A DNA stretch of 24,994 nucleotides from Candidatus Poribacteria bacterium. Its GTDB lineage: Bacteria > Abyssobacteria > SURF-5. The stretch is taken from NCBI GenBank assembly GCA_016215705.1, contig JACRIR010000013.1:1-24994 (forward strand), written 5' to 3'. How positions within the stretch are numbered: position 1 is the first letter of the stretch; each line of letters starts with the position of its first letter. This document shows positions 753 to 19,551 of this stretch, piece after piece. The position numbers were made by a program, and so were the translations under genes. The notes under the pieces were generated by a model. It had not been told where the DNA came from. It made no database searches and worked only from the letters and a program-made list of their open reading frames with translations.

Positions 753-852
753 CAATAGTTTTCGATGTTGGTTTCGTTCGTGCGATTCGCGCCGCCTTGC
801 GAATTCGTGATTGCAGTTTCTCCGGATTCTCTGTGGCAAAAGAGGTGATCCT

Positions 853-1770
853 TTGCGATTCTTGATTATAGATGGCTATTCATCCCAAAGCCGCGAGCGA
901 TTGAGCGCGGCAGGCATGACGCTTGCCTCTGGACTCCACGCTCAAATGCTGCAGCGTTACGACCCAAATGCGGCATTCGATGTTCTCTTCCCCGCCGATG
1001 CGAACACCCGCATACCATCAAAAGATGATCTCCGAGCATACACAGGAATCATATGGACCGGATGCGACAAGACCCTGGCCGATTCTCATGGTCCGGACCT
1101 GCAAAAACAATTGGACCTCGCACAGAGAATACTGCAGGCGGAAGCGCCTTGCTGGGGCACTTGCTGGGGGATTCAGATAATGGCCGTCGCGGCGGGCGGA
1201 AAAGTCGGGCGCAACCCGAATGGAAGAGAAATCGGTCTTGCGAGAAAAATCAAGCTTACATCGGAAGGTCGAGCGCATCCCATGTACGCCGGCAAGAACG
1301 AGGTTTTCGATGCCCTAGCCAGTCATTCCGACATCGTGACAATCGTTCCTCCCCATGCTGTAATACTCGCCTCTAATGATTATAGTGCTGTGCAGGCCAT
1401 GTCGTTCTCTTACGGAAAAGGGATTTTCTGGGGCGTGCAGTATCATCCGGATTTTGATATCTATCAAGTGGCAAGGCTGATGATCGGCAGAAAAGAAGCT
1501 CTCATATCAGAAGGCTTCTTTCAGGACAGCCGGGATTTCGATTCCCATATCGAGCGCATGGAGACGCTTGCCCGCGAACCGAAAAACAAGTGTCTGCGCT
1601 GGCAACTCGGAGTTGATGAAGACATCCTCTCCGCCGATATGCGCCAGCGCGAATTCGCCAACTGGCTGAAGCTGTTCGCCACGGAAAACACCGAGAACAC
1701 GGCGCGGCGGGGCCGCAACCAAACAGATCGCATCGGGCGCGATGAATCGCGCCCCTGCGGGATCTCTTGA
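853..1770 (+). CDS. Class I glutamine amidotransferase (GMP-synthase-like)
   Basis: A 305-residue GATase1-fold protein that should hydrolyse a glutamine or gamma-glutamyl amide. The nucleophile elbow GTCWGIQ places the catalytic Cys at about residue 104, and QYHPDFD places the His at about 198. The third triad position is Asp where Glu is usual (HPD, not HPE). A TTG start at 853 is chosen because AAAGAGGTGATC (839-850), nearly a full anti-SD match, lies 2 nt upstream and the protein then begins MRFLIIDGY; an upstream in-frame TTG at 811 lies within repeat sequence. From about residue 274 the protein is encoded by dispersed-repeat DNA (ATENTENTARRG and following), so the native C-terminus probably ended earlier. 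It precedes an iron alcohol dehydrogenase and a GS-like ligase, so gamma-glutamyl amide hydrolysis is possible; this is inferred from context. Confidence 0.82.
   Translation: MRFLIIDGYSSQSRERLSAAGMTLASGLHAQMLQRYDPNAAFDVLFPADANTRIPSKDDLRAYTGIIWTGCDKTLADSHGPDLQKQLDLAQRILQAEAPCWGTCWGIQIMAVAAGGKVGRNPNGREIGLARKIKLTSEGRAHPMYAGKNEVFDALASHSDIVTIVPPHAVILASNDYSAVQAMSFSYGKGIFWGVQYHPDFDIYQVARLMIGRKEALISEGFFQDSRDFDSHIERMETLAREPKNKCLRWQLGVDEDILSADMRQREFANWLKLFATENTENTARRGRNQTDRIGRDESRPCGIS
1675..1700 (-). repeat. Family A repeat inside the amidotransferase 3' end
   Basis: Read on the minus strand this is the family A cadence (GTGTTCTCGGTGTTTTCCGT, then GGC). It is the only inverted copy noted. It encodes the FATENTENTA residues at the C-terminal end of the amidotransferase. 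Confidence 0.5.
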
Positions 1771-1803
1771 TTTATGCTCGTAGGGGCGCAATTCATTGCG
1801 CCC
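1735..1803. repeat. Two GGGCGC palindromes straddling a stop codon
   Basis: Two perfect 9-bp inverted repeats, each with a 2-nt centre: GGGCGCGAT/ATCGCGCCC at 1735-1754 and GGGCGCAAT/ATTGCGCCC at 1784-1803. They are about 30 bp apart. The first lies inside the amidotransferase CDS and its TGA (1768-1770) sits between them. No T-tract follows, so an intrinsic terminator is less likely than a mobile palindromic repeat, though the hairpins could still affect mRNA decay. Confidence 0.75.
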
Positions 1804-1895
1804 TTGCAATCTGAATGCGTGAGGTTCGCATATGAAAATCACGACAAGAATTGGTGATTCTGAGGACGAGTAGTTCAGAGGGCAAGAGATAAGAA

Positions 1896-1930
1896 ATCTC
1901 TCAGTGATCTCCGTGCCCTCTATGGCTTGG
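1896..1930 (+). repeat. Family A dispersed repeat, copy 4
   Basis: TCTCAGTGATCTCCGTGCCC followed by TCTATGGC. It closely matches copy 2 and ends about 20 bp before the alcohol dehydrogenase GTG start, so it forms most of that gene's leader. Confidence 0.6.
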
Positions 1931-1952
1931 AATTTTGGAAGGAGACTGAATC

Positions 1953-3125
1953 GTGAAAGATGTTGTCAGGTTCTCATTCCCGACCACCATCTACTTTGGC
2001 CCGGGCGCGTTAGAGCAACTGCCGTTGTGCCTTGAAGAGGTCGGCGTAACAAAGCCTCTCCTGGTCACGGATAGCGGACTGCCAAAGACCGGGGCGTTCA
2101 ACATGGTCGAAGCCGTCCTCAAACAATCCCGAATGCGCTTTGCACTCTTTTCTGATGTGCATCCCAATCCGCTGATAGAGGACGTCGAAAGAGCAGCCGG
2201 AGCTTACAGAACCAATGGCTGCAACGGCGTCATCGGCCTCGGCGGCGGAAGCGCTCTCGACGCGGCCAAGGTCATGCCGGTCGCAGTCACTAATAAGGGA
2301 TCGCTCACCGACTACGATGTCCAGACCGGCGGCAATACGCAAATCAAAGGGCCTTTGCCCGCTGTGATAGCAATCCCCACCACCGCCGGCACAGGCTCCG
2401 AAGTGGGAAGATGTTCCGTAATCACCGATCCGCAAGCAAACAGGAAGTTCCTGGTATGTCATCCGGAGATGATGCCCCGTCGCGCCATTCTCGACCCGGA
2501 GCTGACCGTAGGGCTGCCCGCGCATCTCACGGCGGCCACAGGAATGGATGCCTTCACCCATAACCTCGAAGCTCTGACGGTCGACATGTTCCATCCCATG
2601 TGCGACGCAATTGCCCTGAAGGGCATCGAATTCACCGCGCAATATCTCGAGCGCGCAGTCAAGAATCCAAAGGACATAGAAGCGCGCGGACATATGATGA
2701 TCGCGGCCATGATGGGCGCCGTCGCCTTTCAAAAAGACCTCGGCGCCGCTCACTCTATGGCTCATCCGTTATCCACCCTGTGCGGCGTTCATCATGGATT
2801 GGCAAACGCAATCTGCCTCGTTCCCGTGATGAAGTTCAATCGCGATATCGTTGCCGCCAAATATGCGGAGGTCGCCCGCTGCTTCGGCACAGACATCAGC
2901 CGCTTATCCAAACTCGAAGCGGCAGACAAAGCCATTGAGGCGGTAGCGGACCTTAATCGGCGTATCGGAATCCCCGGCTCGTTAGCCCAGGTGGGGGTGA
3001 CCAAAGACCAATTGCCGGTCCTCGCTAAGAAGGCATTTGAAGATATTTGTCATCAGGCAAATCCCAGACTCTGCAGCGAGCAGGATTTTCTTAAGCTGTT
3101 TAAGGAAGCATTTAGGCACAGTTGA
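1953..3125 (+). CDS. Iron-containing alcohol dehydrogenase
   Basis: A 390-residue group III alcohol dehydrogenase, full length for the family, which interconverts an alcohol and an aldehyde with NAD(P). The N-terminal nucleotide-binding half has GLGGGSALDAAK (about 95-106) and PTTAGTGSE (about 142-150). The C-terminal helical half supplies the metal ligands: Asp199 and His203 in GMDAFTH, His267 in GAAHSMAH and His281 in GVHHG. Their spacing (4, 64, 14) matches the known FucO-type set. The GTG start at 1953 has AAGGAG at 1939-1944. It lies between the amidotransferase and an aldehyde:ferredoxin oxidoreductase, so a two-step alcohol to aldehyde to acid oxidation is likely. The natural alcohol cannot be read from the sequence. 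Confidence 0.93.
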   Translation: MKDVVRFSFPTTIYFGPGALEQLPLCLEEVGVTKPLLVTDSGLPKTGAFNMVEAVLKQSRMRFALFSDVHPNPLIEDVERAAGAYRTNGCNGVIGLGGGSALDAAKVMPVAVTNKGSLTDYDVQTGGNTQIKGPLPAVIAIPTTAGTGSEVGRCSVITDPQANRKFLVCHPEMMPRRAILDPELTVGLPAHLTAATGMDAFTHNLEALTVDMFHPMCDAIALKGIEFTAQYLERAVKNPKDIEARGHMMIAAMMGAVAFQKDLGAAHSMAHPLSTLCGVHHGLANAICLVPVMKFNRDIVAAKYAEVARCFGTDISRLSKLEAADKAIEAVADLNRRIGIPGSLAQVGVTKDQLPVLAKKAFEDICHQANPRLCSEQDFLKLFKEAFRHS

Positions 3126-3174
3126 ACCAAAGGGAGAACACATCGATGTTTCTGCTTCCGGTTTTGGGTTCTAT

Positions 3175-3213
3175 GTCCCCCTTTATCCCCCTTTGCAAAG
3201 GGGGAAAGAGGGA
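3175..3213. repeat. C/G-rich hairpin repeat (CCCCCTTTGCAAAGGGGG)
   Basis: A perfect 18-bp palindrome lies at 3187-3204, extended by imperfect arms (TCCCCCTTTAT on the left, AAAGAGGGA on the right). A related, longer copy is at 21524-21568. It sits between the alcohol dehydrogenase stop and the oxidoreductase start. No U-tract follows. Confidence 0.7.
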
Positions 3214-3278
3214 GATTTCGCCTCTCGCCTGCTCCGCGCTCTCGGCGACATGGTGGTTAATCCCATTCTTGTGTCTCC

Positions 3279-3308
3279 AACCAGGAACCAGGAACCAAAA
3301 ACCAGGAA
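3279..3308 (+). repeat. AACCAGG direct repeats before the oxidoreductase start
   Basis: AACCAGG/AACCAGG/AACCAAAAACCAGG occupies the 30 bases ending 9 nt before the ATG at 3318, where a Shine-Dalgarno site would be. The AGGAA in the last unit is the only candidate ribosome site. A similar AACCACAAACCAGAAACC run is near 21684-21702. Confidence 0.5.
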
Positions 3309-3317
3309 TTTCCTATA

Positions 3318-5243
3318 ATGCCTAACGGTTTTAGTAGAATCATTCTGAAGATCGACCTCGGCGGCCCACGAGTGGAACGCCGGCAGTTCGATGAAGCTTT
3401 CTACCGGATGTATATGGGCGGCTCGGCCATCGGAGCATATTTTCTGCTCAAAGAGACAGAACCTGATACGGACGCCCTTAGCGAGGGAAATGTTTTGACA
3501 ATTGCATGCTCCGTCACTACCGGCGCGCTCGTAAGCGGAGTCAGCAGGTTTTGCGTCACGGCCATTTCTCCGGAGACCGGCGCTATCGGCGACAGCCAGG
3601 CCGGCGGCAGTTTCGGACCTATGCTAAAACGCGCCGGCTTCGACGCAATCGTCATCACCGGTCGGGCCAGGCAACCATGCTATATTCTCATTGACGATGA
3701 CAACGTACAAATAAAAGATGCGGCTGATCTGACCGGCAAGTCCGTTCTGGATGTCCACGATATTCTTTCAAGAGAATATGGGAACAAGAACATAAGCGTT
3801 TTGCAATGTGGACCTGCCGGCGAGAAACTCGTTCGATTCGCATGTCTTCTGGCTGATCTGAATGACGTCGCCGGACGAACGGGGATGGGCGCGGTGTTTG
3901 GCTCCAAAAACCTTCGCGCCATTGTTGTGCGCGCTTCAAGAAACATTGATTTCGCAGACGCCGAAGGTCTGAAACAGCTTGCCCGCGTCGCTTCCGGGAA
4001 TCTGCCCAAAGCGGAGTTTCCAACTACGCTCGCCAGGTATGGAACGCCCGGCGTACTCGGCTTCCAGGCCCAATCGGGCAACCTTTGCACGCATAATTAT
4101 TCAAGAAGTTTTCATGAAGACTACAACAAGCTTGACGGCTCCGAATTCGAACCCGCGATGGGCGCCGGCAAGACGACATGTTTCGCCTGCATTGTCGGCT
4201 GCCGAAAAAAGGTGAAATGCCGGGAGCCCTACGAAGTGACGGACAGGCTCGGCGGACCGGAATTTGAGACCCTTGGTTTGTTGGGCTCCAACCTTGACAT
4301 GACCGATCCGGTGGCCGTCGCCAAAGCCAATGAGTTGTGCAACAACTATGGGCTCGACACCATCACTATGGGCGGCTTGGCATCTTACCTATTTGAATCT
4401 GTGGAAAAGGGCCTCATCTTGACAGTGTCCGACGAATTCGATTTCGAGCCGGCATTGTCAGTGGGGACACGGCACGCCGTGCCACCACAACAGCCTGCGC
4501 TCAGATTCGGCAATGCAGAAGCGTTGCTCTGGCTCATCGAGCGCGTGGCCAATCGCAAGGGCATAGGCGACATACTGGCGGAAGGATTCGATGCCGCCGT
4601 CAAGAGATTCGGCCCAGCGACAGCGCCTTACGCAATCAACGTCAAGAACCACGCCCTGGCCGTTCACATGGCGCAGGTCAAGCCCAGCCAGGCGTTGATG
4701 TACGCGGTATGTCCCATCGGCGCCGACCACATGTCCTCGGAACACGACTGGCTTTTGGCCTCCGACTCGGAAGCATCCAAAGGTCTCGGAATCCTTGGCC
4801 GAGGCACACGGGAAAGTTGCGACCTCGACAAGGTTCGCATGACGGTCTACTCCCAGTATTACTATAGTCTGCTCGATACGCTCTGCTTGTGCATGTTCTG
4901 CTGGGGACCCGGAAACCTTTTCAGTTACAACCATCTTGAACAGCTTGTGCGCGCCGCCACTGGCTGGGAATGCACTTTCTGGGAATTGATGAAAGTCGGA
5001 CAACGCCGAGTCAACATGATGCGTCAGTTCAACGCCAAGAGGGGTTTCTCGCGCAAAAACGATACGCTGCCTGACAGGCTGTTCGAGCCGTTGCCGGACG
5101 GACCCGCCAGGGGGAAATGTGTTGACAAGGATAACTTCTCACGGATGCTGGATCAATACTATGCTCTAATGGGTTGGGACCAGCGCTCAGGCAACCCAAG
5201 CCAGGGTGTCCTTCTTGAGTTGGGACTCGAGTGGACAATCTGA
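3318..5243 (+). CDS. Aldehyde:ferredoxin oxidoreductase (tungsten pterin type)
   Basis: A 641-residue AOR-family enzyme, expected to oxidise an aldehyde to its acid and pass electrons to ferredoxin. The N-terminal pterin-binding domain has GGSAIGAYFLLKE and the block ending QAGGSFGPMLKRAGFDAIV. The 4Fe-4S cluster motif CFACIVGC places Cys at 288, 291 and 295. A late Cys in DTLCLCMFC (523 or 525) is the likely fourth ligand. The family's GIGDILAEG motif is present. Family AORs are about 605-620 residues; the excess is partly a 45-bp repeat-like in-frame insert (residues 381-395) carrying GTRHAVPPQQ. The ribosome site is weak (AGGAATTTCCTATA). It follows the alcohol dehydrogenase and precedes the GS-like ligase. 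W versus Mo use and the substrate are not visible from sequence. Confidence 0.93.
   Translation: MPNGFSRIILKIDLGGPRVERRQFDEAFYRMYMGGSAIGAYFLLKETEPDTDALSEGNVLTIACSVTTGALVSGVSRFCVTAISPETGAIGDSQAGGSFGPMLKRAGFDAIVITGRARQPCYILIDDDNVQIKDAADLTGKSVLDVHDILSREYGNKNISVLQCGPAGEKLVRFACLLADLNDVAGRTGMGAVFGSKNLRAIVVRASRNIDFADAEGLKQLARVASGNLPKAEFPTTLARYGTPGVLGFQAQSGNLCTHNYSRSFHEDYNKLDGSEFEPAMGAGKTTCFACIVGCRKKVKCREPYEVTDRLGGPEFETLGLLGSNLDMTDPVAVAKANELCNNYGLDTITMGGLASYLFESVEKGLILTVSDEFDFEPALSVGTRHAVPPQQPALRFGNAEALLWLIERVANRKGIGDILAEGFDAAVKRFGPATAPYAINVKNHALAVHMAQVKPSQALMYAVCPIGADHMSSEHDWLLASDSEASKGLGILGRGTRESCDLDKVRMTVYSQYYYSLLDTLCLCMFCWGPGNLFSYNHLEQLVRAATGWECTFWELMKVGQRRVNMMRQFNAKRGFSRKNDTLPDRLFEPLPDGPARGKCVDKDNFSRMLDQYYALMGWDQRSGNPSQGVLLELGLEWTI
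4458..4502 (+). repeat. 45-bp in-frame palindromic insert within the AOR gene
   Basis: The core is the palindrome GGCACG-C-CGTGCC (4471-4483), flanked by GTGG and CCAC. It encodes SVGTRHAVPPQQPAL. The residues Pro-Ala-Leu occur just before it (4449-4457, CCGGCATTG) and at its end (4494-4502, CCTGCGCTC), as if the target had been duplicated and then diverged. Removing 45 bp restores a smooth family-like segment, EPALRFGNAEALL. Confidence 0.5.
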
Positions 5244-5390
5244 GAACCAACTTTTCGCCACAAGAGAGCGCCGTGATATGAAAGAGGAAAAACTAACTGG
5301 ACTACTCACTTTCAAAGTCGCGAATTTCCATCGTGATTTCCCTGCCGTCTTTTTTGGAAGTTGAATGGCCACGGCGCGATGGACCGCGAA

Positions 5391-5448
5391 GGGGACTGTC
5401 CCTATTTACGGGCCGAGTTCTTTAGGCCGTAGAATAGGGATTGTCCCC
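5391..5448. repeat. 58-nt imperfect hairpin (GGGACTGTCCC family)
   Basis: The left arm GGGGACTGTCCCTATT (5391-5406) pairs with AATAGGGATTGTCCCC (5433-5448), 14 of 16. An inner stem follows: TACGGGCC (5407-5414) with GGCCGTA (5425-5431). It lies in the AOR to GS-like intergenic space. A shorter relative, GACTGTCCCTGACTATCCC, sits at 15841-15859 after the YgiQ gene. There is no T-tract. Confidence 0.7.
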
Positions 5449-5479
5449 GAAGCTTTGGTTGCGGCTATGCCGGGCTGTG

Positions 5480-5503
5480 AACTCGGTGATGTCCTCTGTG
5501 GCA
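5480..5503 (+). repeat. Family A dispersed repeat, copy 5
   Basis: ACTCGGTGATGTCCTCTGTG followed by GCAA, the family A cadence again, 29 bp upstream of the GS-like ATG at 5532. Confidence 0.5.
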
Positions 5504-5531
5504 AGAATAAATCTGCGGAAAGGCGACAAAC

Positions 5532-6893
5532 ATGAAACCGAAAAAGAATAGCGCTTTGCCCGAGTGGTTCACTAAGGAAGATATCGAAACCGTGATATTC
5601 GCTTTTCCCGACGTGTTCGGTCGCCTGATGGGAAAACGGATGACCTTAGATCATTTTGTCAGCGACGCGCTCGAATCAGGAATGCACGCATGCAGCTATC
5701 TCATGACCGTCGATATCCCCATGCAGGTGGTCGAGGGATTCAAGATCGCAAGCTGGCAGACAGGCTTCGGCGATTTCTGCATCCGGGCCGACCTCGGCAC
5801 AATCAGAAGACTCCCCTGGCAACAAAAGACCGCTGTCGTACTCGGCGATATGCTGCATCACGACGGCAAACCGGTGGAAGAATCACCGAGACGCATTCTC
5901 TCCAGACAGATTCAAAGGCTTGCCTCAAAGAATCAGAAAGCGTTTCTCGGCTCCGAACTCGAGTTCTTCCTCTTCGATGAGACATACCATGGCGCGCGAA
6001 ACAAGAGCTACCAAAACCTGACGACAGCGTCGGATTATTCGATAGACTATCACATCTTGCAGCCGGGCAAGGATGAGGATATTCTTCGACGGCTCAGGAA
6101 CGAGATGACCGCCGCCGGCATCACGGTCGAATGCAGCAAAGGCGAAACAGCCGACGGCCAGCATGAAGTGAATCTGCTCTATAGCGAAGCGCTGGAAATG
6201 GCGGACAGGCATGTGCTCTATAAAGCCGGCGCAAAGGACATCGCTTTCCAGCAGGGAAAAGCGGTCAGCTTCATGGCCAAGTTGAACACCGCCCAGGCCG
6301 GCAACGGTTTCCACATTCATACCAGCATCTGGGACACCAATAAGAAGGCGAATCTATTCTGGGATGAGAAAGCTTCTGCGCCCAGCCGATTGTTCAAACA
6401 GTTTCTTGGCGGCCTTCTGGCTTACAGCCGCGAACTGACGTACTTCTTTGCGCCGACCATAAACTCCTACAAAAGATTTCAGGCCGGCTCGTGGGCGCCG
6501 ACCGCCATCGTGTGCGGGCAAGACAACCGCACATGCGGCTTCAGAATTGTAGGCCACGGCAACTCATTGCGGATCGAGAACCGCATGCCCGGCGCCGATG
6601 CGAACCCTTACCTCGCTTTTGCTGCAACACTTGCAGCCGGCCTGAAGGGCATCGAAGAAAAACTGGATTGCGGTCAGATTTACATGGGCAATGCCTATGC
6701 CGATTCGACACTGCCGCGTTTGCCGTTTTCACTTGAAGAGGCTGTAAGCCTTCTTGATGCGAGCAAGCTCGCTCACGAGGCCTTTGGCAACGAAGTGGTC
6801 GATTTCTATGTCCACACCGCTGCTTCCGAAGTCAAGGCTTTTGCACAAACCGTCACCGATTGGGAAAAAGCGCGCTACTTCGAGCAGATATAG
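5532..6893 (+). CDS. Glutamine-synthetase-family gamma-glutamyl ligase
   Basis: A 453-residue GS-fold enzyme, expected to join glutamate through its gamma-carboxyl to ammonia or an amine using ATP. Metal and substrate motifs are GSELEFFLF (Glu142, Glu144), DGQHEVNL (Glu212) and GNGFHIHTS (His261/His263). The ATP-side loop KRFQAGSWAP and the closing RIENRMPGADANPY are present. The phrase AGAKDIAFQQGKAVSFMAK is like the GlnA4/PuuA/GmaS side of the family rather than housekeeping GlnA, and I see no adenylylation tyrosine motif. The GCGGAAAGG before the ATG is an acceptable ribosome site. Clustering with an amidotransferase, an alcohol dehydrogenase and an aldehyde oxidoreductase favours an amine-glutamylating role. 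The amine is unknown. Confidence 0.88.
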   Translation: MKPKKNSALPEWFTKEDIETVIFAFPDVFGRLMGKRMTLDHFVSDALESGMHACSYLMTVDIPMQVVEGFKIASWQTGFGDFCIRADLGTIRRLPWQQKTAVVLGDMLHHDGKPVEESPRRILSRQIQRLASKNQKAFLGSELEFFLFDETYHGARNKSYQNLTTASDYSIDYHILQPGKDEDILRRLRNEMTAAGITVECSKGETADGQHEVNLLYSEALEMADRHVLYKAGAKDIAFQQGKAVSFMAKLNTAQAGNGFHIHTSIWDTNKKANLFWDEKASAPSRLFKQFLGGLLAYSRELTYFFAPTINSYKRFQAGSWAPTAIVCGQDNRTCGFRIVGHGNSLRIENRMPGADANPYLAFAATLAAGLKGIEEKLDCGQIYMGNAYADSTLPRLPFSLEEAVSLLDASKLAHEAFGNEVVDFYVHTAASEVKAFAQTVTDWEKARYFEQI

Positions 6894-8640: not shown

Positions 8641-9482
8641 AACTCTTCCACCGGCTTCAATTCGACTTCGGGATATATCTGTCCGTGGCACGGCGGCATT
8701 GAGTTGTAGACCCAATCTATGTCGACGGCGCCCATCCGAAAAAATCTGTATCTTTTGAATCCCGCGAACGTCCCTCGCACGAGAACGTCCTCCATTCCCA
8801 TAGTTAGGCCGAACACGGCGACGTGTGCGCCCTTCGGGATTTCGCTGAGTTCCTCGCCATAGGCTCGCGGTGAAAAGACCAGCCGCCTGCTATCGGCCGC
8901 CTGGCACTGAATGACTGGCGCAATGATCGGGAATCCATCGCCGCCGACGTAGGCGATGAACTTGAGTGAATCCAGCTTGTTGAATAGGTCTTCCGCGAAC
9001 GGCTTGAGAATGCGTTCCTTTATCCCTGTCGCAGCGGCGCCCTTGGCAAACTTAGTGATAAGCGCGGCGCGGGTGATGAGAGGAACCGGCAGTCGTTCGC
9101 CGTCCGAAGTTTCCACGAGGTCGAGATAATGGACGGTGTTTATGCCGAAGTAAGCGTTGTACCGGAACAAAGGCATTTCGTTATACTTTTCATATTCAGG
9201 GCCGTCTTTTCTCGTATGAGTCCACTTTGCTTTTCCGCGCCAAATCTTTCTATCGAGGGTCATTATCAAGAACGCGACTTTGGGATTTCGCTGAATATAC
9301 TGCTTGCTCATTCCTTTGCAGAATTCTCCGAGGGTCAACTGTGCGGGGCTTGCCGCCATTATCGAAGTGATGAGAGAAATGTGCGGGAGCCCCTGCGGGC
9401 TGACGCCGGCGACAAGTCCGATTTTCTCCGCAGGCTCAAACGCCTTGATTTCTTCTGCGCTGAAGAGTGTTCTTGTGTTCAA
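8637..9482 (-). CDS. FMN-binding split-barrel (PNPOx-like) protein
   Basis: A 281-residue protein with a pyridoxamine-phosphate-oxidase-like N-terminal half: IGLVAGVSPQGLPHISLI is the usual first barrel strands, and RNPKVAFLIM the following one. The C-terminal half (about residues 160-280) contains a second similar segment (LKFIAYVGGDGFPIIAPVI), suggesting two related halves. Function is unknown; relatives bind FMN, F420 or heme. It starts with a TTG that overlaps the TGA of the activase (TTGA), so translation is probably coupled; GGAG lies about 10 nt upstream. Position as third gene of the glycyl radical operon suggests a role with that enzyme, for example flavin redox protection or product handling, but this is only inferred. 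Confidence 0.72.
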   Translation of the reverse strand: MNTRTLFSAEEIKAFEPAEKIGLVAGVSPQGLPHISLITSIMAASPAQLTLGEFCKGMSKQYIQRNPKVAFLIMTLDRKIWRGKAKWTHTRKDGPEYEKYNEMPLFRYNAYFGINTVHYLDLVETSDGERLPVPLITRAALITKFAKGAAATGIKERILKPFAEDLFNKLDSLKFIAYVGGDGFPIIAPVIQCQAADSRRLVFSPRAYGEELSEIPKGAHVAVFGLTMGMEDVLVRGTFAGFKRYRFFRMGAVDIDWVYNSMPPCHGQIYPEVELKPVEEF

Positions 9483-10501
9483 AGAGATGTCTCCAACATT
9501 GCATGCCTAGATTCACCCTTATCCTCGTCCAATTTGGTCGAGCCGCTCCAGCGCACTATCTCGGGTTTCGTCACTGAATCACGAGCGATCTCTGCCAACT
9601 CTTCCATAAATTCTTTCGTCAACAGTTCGGCATTCTTAAACGGCCAATCGAGCCCAAGTCGAACGTACTTATCCCGGCAAAGGTTGTTGAATGCGCACAA
9701 GTCCCAGCGGCTCACCGTATCATGCAAACGTGAAGCGATGAACTTGCCTATGCCCCTGATATTGTCTTCTCTCGCGGTTGCCCCCGGGATGATCGGAGTC
9801 CGCACCCATAAGTGATCGGGCTGCGAGCATATCAGCATATGTTCCGACACTCGAACAAGGTTTTCCAGGATCTTCTCGTTGGGCTTGCCCGTGAATTGCC
9901 TGTGCTTGTCAGCATCAATTTCCTTAATGTCAAACAGGACCATATCCACGTGAAACAATATCCTATCGAGGACGTCTCTTGAGCACATACCGCAGGTGTC
10001 AAGAGCCGTATGTATTCCCGCCTTTTGGAGGCGCATAAGAAAATCTTCGACAAACTTTGCCTGCACGGTAGGTTCGCCGCCAGACACAGTGACACCGCCG
10101 CCAGACTTCTCGAAATAAGCCCTGTCCTTGACGACCTCTGCGGTCAGTGAGTCGAGCGTCCATCTTTTTCCGAGAAGCTCGAGCGCGTTGGAAGGACATG
10201 CTTCGGCGCATGTGCCGCAACCTTTGCACATGTTTCGATCGATGAGAACGCCGCTTTCCGTGAACAACAAAGCACCGTTGGGGCACACATCCCGGCATGT
10301 CTTGCACCCGATACATCTGGAACCGATCCAATGCAGTTGCGGATGCAGTGATATGCTTTCCGGATTATGACACCACGAGCACTTCAGGCTGCAACCTTTG
10401 AAGAAGACGGTTGTTCGAATGCCCGGCCCGTCTTCAGTGGACATTCGCTGTATTTCAAGAACGACGCCCTCGGAGATATTGGATTTTTCTTGCTCGGACA
10501 T
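9479..10501 (-). CDS. Glycyl radical enzyme activating enzyme (radical SAM)
   Basis: A 340-residue activase that uses a SAM-cleaving 4Fe-4S cluster to make the glycyl radical on the neighbouring enzyme. The radical SAM motif is CSLKCSWC (Cys37, 41, 44). An inserted two-cluster ferredoxin domain follows, with CIGCKTCRDVC (63-73) and CKGCGTCAEAC (92-102), which is typical of eliminase/decarboxylase activases and absent from PflA. GGGVTVSGGEP is the SAM-contacting glycine motif. AGGAAAATA precedes the ATG. The gene lies 52 bp after the glycyl radical enzyme and overlaps the next gene, so it belongs to that operon. Confidence 0.95.
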   Translation of the reverse strand: MSEQEKSNISEGVVLEIQRMSTEDGPGIRTTVFFKGCSLKCSWCHNPESISLHPQLHWIGSRCIGCKTCRDVCPNGALLFTESGVLIDRNMCKGCGTCAEACPSNALELLGKRWTLDSLTAEVVKDRAYFEKSGGGVTVSGGEPTVQAKFVEDFLMRLQKAGIHTALDTCGMCSRDVLDRILFHVDMVLFDIKEIDADKHRQFTGKPNEKILENLVRVSEHMLICSQPDHLWVRTPIIPGATAREDNIRGIGKFIASRLHDTVSRWDLCAFNNLCRDKYVRLGLDWPFKNAELLTKEFMEELAEIARDSVTKPEIVRWSGSTKLDEDKGESRHAMLETSL

Positions 10502-10518
10502 TATTTTCCTATTGCCCT

Positions 10519-10549
10519 GACTTTCGACCTTGCACCTTCGACTTTCGAC
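10519..10549. repeat. GACTTTCGAC direct repeat between GRE and activase
   Basis: Two exact copies of GACTTTCGAC at 10519-10528 and 10540-10549, separated by CTTGCACCTTC, give a 21-bp period (two helical turns). They fill most of the 52-bp gap between the two genes. Confidence 0.6.
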
Positions 10550-10553
10550 TCCT

Positions 10554-13070
10554 TCACATCCCGCTATGACTAATCCTCTTTATCACTTCGTTCTGGAGCT
10601 CTTTGCCGACTGTGGTGAAGTAAGCGTTGTAGCCGGTTATCCTCACCAAGAGATGGCGATAATCCTGCGGATGCTTCTGCGCATCGCGCAGCATCTCAGG
10701 ATCGAGCATGTTTAGTTGAAGCGCGGTTCCCCCATTTTCGACGTAGCCCCTCAGAAAGGCCTTGAATTTTTCCTTGTGCTCGGGGTCGCACATGATTGAA
10801 GGATTGAAGGTTATGGTGTGGCTGGCGCCGTTCGGAAGCATGTTCAGGTATCCGTCCCAGTCGCCGTTTCCGTAGGTCGCCTTTCCGCCCAGGGCTTTTC
10901 CGACGGAGTTGGCGTTGGCGGTCGGCCCGTTGATATCCGCTCCATTGGATGGGCATATCGCGTTCGAGAGGAACTGTCCCATCGGCCTTCCGTCGGCGCT
11001 CGCAGCCATGACATATCCATCTCCTGCCCAGTAATTCCAGCTCAGCATGCCAGGCCGGAACCGGCGATTCGTTGACGCGGTCTTGTGCTTCCACGTCTCC
11101 TCGCACCAGAGGCTCATGACCCTGGCCGCCATTTCGTCGGCAGCGTCGTCATCCCTGCCGTACTTTGGCGCTTTGTTTTTCGCAATAGCCTGAAGCTTTT
11201 CGTGACCGCGCCAGTTTGCCTTGAGCGCGTTTATCAGTTCGGCCATGGTACATGCCTTCTTGTCGAAAACGAGATACTTTATGGCGAGCAAAGAATCAAC
11301 CGTCGTTGCGTAGGTCACCGCTTCGAGTGTGGTAAAGCTGATCTCCGCCCCTCCCTGCGTTATATCGAGGCCCTTTTCTGCGCATCCTTTGACAAGACAT
11401 GAGAGATATGGAGTAGTGAAGAACTTCGACCGAAGCGCCTCGGAGAATTCGTAGGTCTCGGCGCACTTTTGGACGATATACCGCGTCTGCTTTTCGTAGG
11501 CATTCCAGAACTCATCCCAGGTTTTGAAAGTCGCGGCGTCTCCGGTGGCGGGGCCGTCCTGTCCGATCTCTTCGGTCTTGCCGGTGATTCGATTTACGTA
11601 CGGCAGCAGGTCTTTGCCGCCCGTGAGCGCGAGTTCGACAGCTTTGAGCAGGTTGAGATTGTTGTCCACGGTGCCCGACCTGTCGTTGCCGACCATTGTG
11701 TTTTCGAGGCAGCCGACGGGCGCGTAGTCGTGCGCGTTGCTCTCGTTTACGAGATGGGTGATGCCGGCCTTCTTTGCCTCGAGCATCATGCCGGCCATCG
11801 AGCGCTCGTCGAAATTCAGGAGAAAGGGGGCTCCCTGGCTTGATGAGACCATGTCAACAATCTTGTCGAGGAGTTTGTCGGGTGAGTTGCGGTGCAATCT
11901 CACGTTGGGTTTCGGTTCGAGGATGGGGGTCATCTCGTCGATGACCTCAAGGATCGCATAAGTGAGGTCATTGGTCATATCCTGGCCGTCCTTGCCGACG
12001 CCCGAGAGTGTGATAAGTTGGCCGAAGCCTGCGGTGATGCCCTGGTTGCCGTTGCGGATCATGGCGTCATAGGCCGTATTACAGTGAACCCAGAAGCATT
12101 TCAGAATCTCTTTGCCGAACTCCCGGTCCATTCCGTGAGACAACGAGTATTCCCAGTAAGGCAGAAGGTATTGGTCAATTCTGCCGAATGAGACACCGGG
12201 GCCCGGGTAGTTCTCATCGCTCATGACGAGCATGTGATTCAGCCACAGGGCCTGCACCGCTTCCCAAAAAGTCCGGGCGGGTTCCCACGGGACTCTGTCG
12301 AGATTCCGCGCCGTTTGTGAGAGTTCTTCTTTTCGGGTCGGGTTCGATTGCTTCGCGGAGAGGCCCCGGCAGAGGTTTGCGTATTTTGCCGCAAGCTCTT
12401 TAGACATGGTCGCGGAAGTCATCATGGCTCTGATCTGCGCGCCTGCGGAACCGTTTTGTTCGCTTTTATTCAGGCGATTGCGCTTGGTCTCGAGGTCGGC
12501 AAGAATTCCTTTCCAGCCGAGTTTGAGCGCGCGTTCATGGCCGGGGATGAGGTGGCCGCTTGTGCTGCCGGAGTTGCCATAGCCGTGGTCGTGGAACCAC
12601 TTCATTTTTGTCCTGGCGCCGTCCTTCCCGAGTGTCAGCCTGTCGTACTCCTCGGTCTCTTTCCTGGTCAGGCACATCGAGGTCTGTATGTTGAATCGGC
12701 CGCCGGCCAAGAGATCACCGGGAAGCATGTCTTGTGGCAGATAGCTCACCATCACTTCTTTTACAAACCATGCCCTCCTCTCGGGTAGGCTCCATGACCA
12801 GAAATCCTTGTGCAGTTTTACGTTTCGCGCCGCCTGACGGTACGATGCCCGCATGGTCTGAAGGAAAACATAAACCTCGGGGATGATGTAGTATGTGAGT
12901 TCCTGAAACTGGATGTCCCAGGGTGTGCCTGTGCTCCAAGCGGTGAACTCGTTGTTCCAGGCTCTCTCGGCGCCCTTGAAGTAGTAATCTCTAAGCCAGG
13001 AGATTCTGGGCGAGAGGTATTTCGCCACCTTGATTTTGTGTTGCGTTTCTTTCGCGGTGAGAACGCTCAT
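10554..13070 (-). CDS. Glycyl radical enzyme, eliminase/decarboxylase-like, substrate unknown
   Basis: An 838-residue PFL-domain enzyme, about the length of choline lyase or arylacetate decarboxylase. The thiyl Cys is Cys454 in DYAPVGCLENTM, with Glu456 two residues on. Cys-x-Glu marks dehydratase, lyase and decarboxylase types; formate lyases have Cys-Cys. The family usually continues Cys-x-Glu-Pro, but here Asn follows. The radical site is Gly813 in VRITGYNAYF, 25 residues from the end. SNAICPSNGADINGPTA precedes it. No microcompartment genes, PFL partner or small HPAD-type subunit is nearby. CGGAGG precedes the ATG and a TATAAT lies 39 bp upstream. The activase and a flavin-type protein follow. 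Arylacetate or aryl-succinate chemistry is possible, but the residues seen do not decide it. Confidence 0.93.
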   Translation of the reverse strand: MSVLTAKETQHKIKVAKYLSPRISWLRDYYFKGAERAWNNEFTAWSTGTPWDIQFQELTYYIIPEVYVFLQTMRASYRQAARNVKLHKDFWSWSLPERRAWFVKEVMVSYLPQDMLPGDLLAGGRFNIQTSMCLTRKETEEYDRLTLGKDGARTKMKWFHDHGYGNSGSTSGHLIPGHERALKLGWKGILADLETKRNRLNKSEQNGSAGAQIRAMMTSATMSKELAAKYANLCRGLSAKQSNPTRKEELSQTARNLDRVPWEPARTFWEAVQALWLNHMLVMSDENYPGPGVSFGRIDQYLLPYWEYSLSHGMDREFGKEILKCFWVHCNTAYDAMIRNGNQGITAGFGQLITLSGVGKDGQDMTNDLTYAILEVIDEMTPILEPKPNVRLHRNSPDKLLDKIVDMVSSSQGAPFLLNFDERSMAGMMLEAKKAGITHLVNESNAHDYAPVGCLENTMVGNDRSGTVDNNLNLLKAVELALTGGKDLLPYVNRITGKTEEIGQDGPATGDAATFKTWDEFWNAYEKQTRYIVQKCAETYEFSEALRSKFFTTPYLSCLVKGCAEKGLDITQGGAEISFTTLEAVTYATTVDSLLAIKYLVFDKKACTMAELINALKANWRGHEKLQAIAKNKAPKYGRDDDAADEMAARVMSLWCEETWKHKTASTNRRFRPGMLSWNYWAGDGYVMAASADGRPMGQFLSNAICPSNGADINGPTANANSVGKALGGKATYGNGDWDGYLNMLPNGASHTITFNPSIMCDPEHKEKFKAFLRGYVENGGTALQLNMLDPEMLRDAQKHPQDYRHLLVRITGYNAYFTTVGKELQNEVIKRISHSGM

Positions 13071-13108
13071 GGTTGCCTCCGTAACGGATGATGTTACCGA
13101 CAGATATC

Positions 13109-19020: not shown

Positions 19021-19551
19021 ATGGCGAAGGCAAAGAGAAAAGCCACCGTGAAACCCGAAATCAAGCGTTTACGCGAGCGCGCGCTCGAACTTGGAGCGAA
19101 GGAGGCGAAGGTCATTCCGGTGGATAGCGTCGTGACGGCGCCCTGGGTGAGGATGCGGTGCCAATACGGCTGCGCCGGTTATGGTCAACGGCTCTCGTGC
19201 CCGCCCTTCTCCCCCACCCCGGAGCACACGCAGAAAATACTCGATTCCTACAAGACCGGCATCTTAATGAAAGGCGAGCTTTGGAAGGTCAACCCGATCA
19301 TGGTTGCGCTTGAGCGCGAGGTGTTTCTTTCCGGTTTCTACAAGGCATGGTCGATGGGTGAAGGCCCATGCCACCAGTGCGAGGCGTGCGCGCTCAAGGC
19401 AGGATGCCGTTTCCCATCACAACTCAGACCCTCGATGGAAGCCTCCGGCATTGACGTTTTCAAGACTGTCAGGAACAACGGTTATGACATAGACGTCGTG
19501 AAGGACTACGATTGTCCGGCGCAGTATTTCGGGTTGGTGCTAGTGGAGTAA
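19021..19551 (+). CDS. DUF2284 Cys-rich metal-binding protein
   Basis: A 176-residue DUF2284 protein, full length. The signature is two Cys groups: MRCQYGCAGYGQRLSCPPF (about residues 41-60) and GPCHQCEACALKAGC (about 117-131). The family-typical ending FRPSMEASGID-like (LRPSMEASGIDVFKTV) follows. Members are predicted to bind a metal or Fe-S cluster and are common in anaerobes. No activity is established that I know of. AAAGGA lies 8 nt before the ATG. It may be co-transcribed with the decarboxylase-like gene, but a 186-bp gap with a repeat separates them. Confidence 0.85.
   Translation: MAKAKRKATVKPEIKRLRERALELGAKEAKVIPVDSVVTAPWVRMRCQYGCAGYGQRLSCPPFSPTPEHTQKILDSYKTGILMKGELWKVNPIMVALEREVFLSGFYKAWSMGEGPCHQCEACALKAGCRFPSQLRPSMEASGIDVFKTVRNNGYDIDVVKDYDCPAQYFGLVLVE

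Follow-up and report, generated by a model that had tools for sequence, protein, structure and literature searches.

Which reaction is catalysed by the glycyl radical enzyme (GRE) encoded in a 24,994-nucleotide stretch of DNA from Candidatus Poribacteria bacterium (contig JACRIR010000013.1, positions 1 to 24,994; this whole stretch is called the window below), and which proteins accompany it? GREs are oxygen-sensitive radical enzymes, and their functions have mostly been discovered through gene neighbourhood. The original prediction drew attention to a Cys-Leu-Glu-Asn loop at the thiyl site, and read the Asn, found in place of a Pro, as the sign of a distinct subgroup with perhaps a new substrate.

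Judged by its sequence, the gene product is an intact GRE. The open reading frame, read directly from 13070 to 10554, starts with ATG and has zero internal stops, and it encodes a PFL-like domain (PF02901, 412 bits) and a Gly_radical domain (PF01228, 76 bits). Together with an RVxGY-type radical loop, a catalytic Cys and an adjoining cognate radical-SAM activase, the PFL-like domain places the protein within the GRE superfamily. The loop around Cys454 is DYAPVGCLENTM, and a re-reading of the sequence puts Cys454, Leu, Glu456, Asn and Gly813 just where they had first been placed (Table 1).

Table 1. Features of the GRE locus, with positions counted along the window
Feature	Positions	Strand	Basis
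GRE gene, 838 aa	10554..13070	minus	motif set GC[LIM]EN / R[IV]TGYN[AT]YF / LSWNY[WF] of the clade
GGAGG ahead of the GRE gene, its likely ribosome-binding site	13076..13080	minus	read directly from sequence
Cys454-Leu-Glu456-Asn457 codons (thiyl site and proposed acid/base)	11700..11711	minus	computed from start 13070
Gly813 codon (glycyl radical site, RITGYNAYF)	10632..10634	minus	sequence and alignment
Radical-SAM glycyl radical activase with ferredoxin-like insert	9479..10501	minus	TIGR02494, 312 bits vs cut-off 174; Radical_SAM and Fer4
PNPOx-like two-domain split-barrel partner, 281 aa	8637..9482	minus	PF01243, AlphaFold2 fold, linkage
RYNAYF motif, partner residues 107-112	9147..9164	minus	invariant in divergent partners

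To which branch of the superfamily does this enzyme belong? In a maximum-likelihood tree of 40 GREs other than PhdB, BssA and AssA, the window GRE falls in a clade whose eight rows sit on a single branch with a support of 100/100, separate from the rows of HPAD, HypD, HpsG, YbiW and PflB. The tree speaks for this grouping and not for the order in which the clades branch; no characterised member of this clade was found. In the first genomes searched by BLAST, relatives of 69–89% identity are present in two genomes and of 42–48% in three, all other matches being at 33% or less, while identity to solved or characterised GREs is about 30% or less. According to Fu et al. (PMC11528403), 40–50% identity is already under the threshold that sets most GREs of different function apart, and the clade lies far below this figure with respect to each characterised GRE tested. 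None of the curated NCBIfam equivalog or subfamily cut-offs is reached by the window GRE, whose scores (bits/cut-off) are 406/678 for TIGR01774, the PFL2/glycerol dehydratase subfamily, 362/1100 for HypD, 318/1050 for CutC, 362/1000 for HpsG, 371/1000 for HpfG, 172/1150 for HPAD, 229/1100 for IAD and 78/994 for PFL. The other GREs of the window's genome score 572–727 bits against TIGR01774. Three related GREs of the window's genome are L005 and L007 in G000:C182 and L006 in G000:C250; two of them form a tandem with a spacing of about 1 kb. Two of the three have a Gln (CVQP, CIQP) where a Glu would follow the Cys, a feature reported for PAD.

The clade is not restricted to this genome, since a scan of genome contigs returned at least 504 loci with clade relatives. 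The best 80 of these are 70–78% identical and every one is labelled MAG; they come mostly from Desulfobacterota and Syntrophales, but also from Spirochaetota and others. The hosts among the matches listed are sediment and digester bacteria which include, as labelled, Desulfobacterota, Syntrophales, Spirochaetota and Myxococcota. The viral contigs searched held zero relatives, and the plasmid records yielded only GREs of about 30% identity, none of them from the clade. In the open-access literature, no account was found of the clade or of the split-barrel partner described below. The window GRE belongs to a widespread and apparently unstudied family of anaerobes, for which a new substrate is plausible. 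Uncharacterised GRE clades being common, however, this one would by itself be only moderately remarkable.

What does the Asn of the loop then mean? The C-x-E-N motif is no accident: it is kept in all 84 family members from the fetched loci, as well as in seven from further genomes that reach down to 44% identity, and it is present in none of the 32 non-family GREs of the comparison set; no characterised Cys-x-Glu-Asn enzyme with which the window GRE would cluster was found. Among the 84 members, GC[LIM]ENT, R[IV]TGYN[AT]YF and LSWNY[WF] are essentially invariant, and a Glu occupies the Glu456 position in every family member read. Pro after Cys-x-Glu had been taken as shared by choline lyase, glycerol dehydratase and 4-hydroxyphenylacetate decarboxylase, but this is not general. 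Where known enzymes could be recognised by a curated model, by their annotation or as a PDB entry, this position is held by Thr in the HPAD large subunit (L130, GCLET, 1568 bits for a cut-off of 1150), in HypD (GCVET in L016, L133 and PDB 6vxc) and in YbiW (GCIET), by Ala in IslA (GCTEA, 5ymr), and by Ala or Pro in HpsG (GCTEA or GCTEP). Because several characterised GREs do without Pro there, Asn is a mark of the clade and not a departure from a universal Pro. The distinct subgroup of the original prediction is borne out by the tree, whereas the argument first given for it is not supported.

The main new finding lies next to the enzyme: it is a near-constant split-barrel partner, which was not found described before. 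In the window, its gene and that of the activase overlap by 4 nt at the stop codon of the latter, and the gene order GRE-activase-partner recurs across phyla. Of the 80 loci fetched, 71 can be tested for the activase, which comes next after the GRE in 68; 63 can be tested for the partner, which holds the third place in 62 and lies 4.5 kb further on in the last one (L101). It adjoins the GRE even where the latter is only 42–47% identical. In L066 it comes directly after the GRE, without activase, and in the divergent members L119, L121 and L165 the GRE adjoins the partner and the activase is not adjacent. Because the partner stays in these four loci, the GRE seems to be tied more firmly to it than to the activase. 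In 41 of 70 loci, the gene immediately upstream of the GRE encodes a GntR regulator that carries FCD and FadR_C domains, its place being taken in the window by a response regulator. Beyond activase, partner and this GntR/FadR-type regulator, no gene is conserved around the clade GREs, so that the neighbourhood gives weak substrate clues; a clade of this size (at least 504 loci) that offers no pathway genes may for this very reason have been overlooked. It had been stated that the known operon types do not fit, and indeed neither microcompartment genes nor an adjacent HPAD small subunit nor beta/gamma subunits are seen. The locus is nevertheless not devoid of partners, as activase and split-barrel protein follow directly. 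The near-constancy of the latter provides an expressible and testable two-gene system, as well as a marker for the substrate search.

Does the association go beyond gene order? Clade GREs (above 1000 bits) are present in 13 of 386 genomes. The partner profile matches 11 of the 386, all within these 13, an overlap whose probability under random placement is 1e-19 when the relatedness of the genomes is ignored. In the remaining two (G318 and G186) the sequence, once read, has the partner adjoining the GRE, which brings the count to 13 of 13 GRE-positive genomes and none of the rest. In G258, G384 and G121, it lies on a different contig from the GRE; the co-occurrence is therefore not merely adjacency. 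The gene surroundings of these three unlinked partners are mutually discordant.

The AlphaFold2 model of the partner (pLDDT 85.7) is made of two split barrels. The first (residues 6–130) matches HupZ, 2htd and FMN-binding proteins with Z scores of 12–14 (14.2 at most), the best match being the haem-related HupZ, and the PNPOx_N domain (PF01243) is recognised at a borderline 28.7 bits for a cut-off of 28.1. On domain and predicted fold, the protein is a PNPOx-like split-barrel member. The split-barrel fold also houses haem, F420 or nothing, and the flavin of the partner is putative. A [RK]YN[AST]Y motif is found in 14 of 14 partners compared, some of them near 25% identity; residues 107–110 of the window's partner, which belong to it, form a low-confidence loop in the model. 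Among 30 control proteins of the PNPOx fold, drawn from 31 genomes and a few of them with short translations, YN.Y occurs once, in a protein that is itself a partner. The RYNAYF of the partner resembles the GRE radical loop, GYN[AT]YF, a likeness that may be due to chance since L032, a GRE outside the clade, also has a GYNAYF loop.

With moderate confidence, we consider that the window GRE is an eliminase-like enzyme of its own clade working with a dedicated PNPOx-like split-barrel partner. The partner could otherwise be a radical helper rather than a pathway enzyme, that is, a flavin or haem protein feeding electrons to the activase, quenching the glycyl radical or shielding it from oxygen. 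This is possible, if doubtful: the partner alone is retained beside the GRE throughout the clade, whereas the pathway genes differ from locus to locus, and its invariant motif, absent from 29 of the 30 controls, sits in a loop of low confidence and recalls the Gly loop. However, its persistence in the four loci without adjacent activase makes service to the activase alone less likely, and a likeness of five residues, shared moreover by a non-clade GRE, carries the risk of coincidence already mentioned. It is rather unlikely that the partner is the obligatory second component of a two-component GRE, in which radical and flavin or haem redox chemistry would be coupled on one substrate, or that it docks via a YNAY loop mimicking the glycyl radical loop. 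Should catalysis truly need the partner, GREs would have gained a new type of accessory protein.

Why an eliminase-like enzyme? The AlphaFold2 model of the window GRE (pLDDT 78.5, with low confidence in the pocket stretch 679–712) aligns with diol dehydratases, GD, CutC and HypD at Z scores of 30–32, against 26.9 for HPAD, 26–27 for BSS and 22.5 for PFL, and the nearest NCBIfam models by bits are eliminases as well (PFL2-3 406, HpfG 371, HypD 362, CutC 318). Cys454, Glu456 and Gly813 are conserved in the alignment with these enzymes, and in HypD and the diol dehydratases the place of His173 is taken by the His of GHxxx. Elimination is favoured because, in structure and sequence, the eliminases are closer to the window GRE than decarboxylases, fumarate-adding enzymes or PFL are, and because the catalytic residues are kept. 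The pocket is different. The two Asp of HypD align with Pro291 and Phe349; the substrate-binding Asp of diol dehydratases (PD/GD), which we take to stand 14 residues after the catalytic Cys, aligns with Val468, a Val that is invariant in six aligned clade members; and SWNYW replaces the usual xxTxH segment, the roles of all these residues in the known enzymes being presumed. Given an identity of about 30% to the eliminases and the change from Asp to Val468, the substrate class may therefore differ, and another reaction is possible. We think that the enzyme is likely a C-O or other C-X lyase with a pocket unlike any characterised one; elimination, a bound flavin and the role of the partner are what we infer, while the analysis itself shows the residues, the clade, the operon, the fold of the partner and its joint occurrence with the enzyme.

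In such a reaction, the adjoining radical-SAM activase would take a hydrogen atom from Gly813, and the glycyl radical would pass to Cys454, whose thiyl radical would attack the substrate and abstract a hydrogen atom. With the help of His173, Glu456 would then serve as acid/base while the leaving group is expelled, water being the likeliest candidate. Cys454 would finally give the hydrogen atom back, and a carbonyl or unsaturated product would be released. The flavin-fold partner would most likely act on this product or maintain the working redox state of the GRE. As to the substrate, we can offer no more than a weak guess, an organic acid: most loci have a regulator of the FadR/FCD type upstream, and a few have a transporter of the lactate type downstream.

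These same hints of acids could also suit a decarboxylase of the arylacetate type (HPAD/IAD/AAD-like) with a carboxylic acid as its substrate, which we hold to be improbable. Cys-x-Glu is found in both HPAD and IAD, and GCLENT has its nearest match, letter by letter, in the GCLET of HPAD. The window GRE however lies outside the HPAD/IAD clade, at 26–27% identity and far under both cut-offs, its post-Cys loop is shorter, and an adjacent small subunit is absent; HPAD has a second Glu in YNVETCG, where the window sequence differs, although the alignment is uncertain there. The search for IAD itself brought up only HPAD/IAD-like proteins, all under the cut-off. PhdB/PAD, compared for PhdB by published description, has in common the GRE superfamily and the activase, but where the window GRE has Glu456, the second residue past the catalytic Cys, PAD has a Gln (PMC9248008), which makes a PAD identity unlikely. 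A diverged member of a known eliminase class (diol, glycerol, choline, hydroxyproline or sulfonate) is very improbable, for although fold, His173, Cys454 and Glu456 fit and a glycerol kinase stands directly upstream in three loci, the curated cut-offs are far off, notably those of the subfamily and of HypD, the aligned pocket differs, and the window's genome has two genuine HpsG copies elsewhere.

The eliminase-like enzyme with its dedicated partner thus shares with 1,2-propanediol and glycerol dehydratases, CutC and HypD the fold, the Cys-x-Glu and Gly loops, the GHxxx His and the adjoining activase, but differs in its 26–32% identity, in C-x-E-N instead of C-x-E-P/T, in Val for the diol-binding Asp and in LSWNYW; its locus differs in the presence of the partner and the absence of microcompartment genes. 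In the comparison with BssA/AssA, which are not in the tree, BSS gives the lower structural Z scores stated above, and beta/gamma subunits are not found nearby. The nearest mention found of a PNPOx-type protein alongside a GRE, likened here by description only, is LssP, a putative PNPOx-type protein of unassigned role in the limonenylsuccinate synthase operon of a Syntrophobacteraceae bacterium; that synthase, on the other hand, is a fumarate-adding GRE with other subunits (PMC12583861). Benzene-activation clusters were rejected as a counterpart, as they involve no GRE.

Several neighbours deserve mention. The glycerol kinase directly upstream of the GRE is that of L083, L095 and L103, and in L095 and L103 an MFS transporter lies directly downstream of the partner, the one of L095 matching the SfMCT L-lactate transporter model with 448 bits for a cut-off of 320; kinase and transporter recur in a few related loci only. 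In L083, the GRE reads as two pieces (8962–10791 and 10825–11514). In L121 (3390–11073), a divergent GRE and a one-domain partner precede an AcpS-like protein, a crotonase, EtfB, EtfA and an old-yellow-enzyme homologue, a single case in which the set from crotonase onwards fits the reduction of an unsaturated product. In the window itself, a glutamine amidotransferase, an iron-containing alcohol dehydrogenase, a tungsten-type aldehyde ferredoxin oxidoreductase and a glutamine-synthetase-like protein stand in a row at 811–6893 on the plus strand and possibly form one pathway. At 19021–19551, also on the plus strand, lies a stand-alone DUF2284 metal-binding protein related to selenoprotein domains (NF041536, NF045648).
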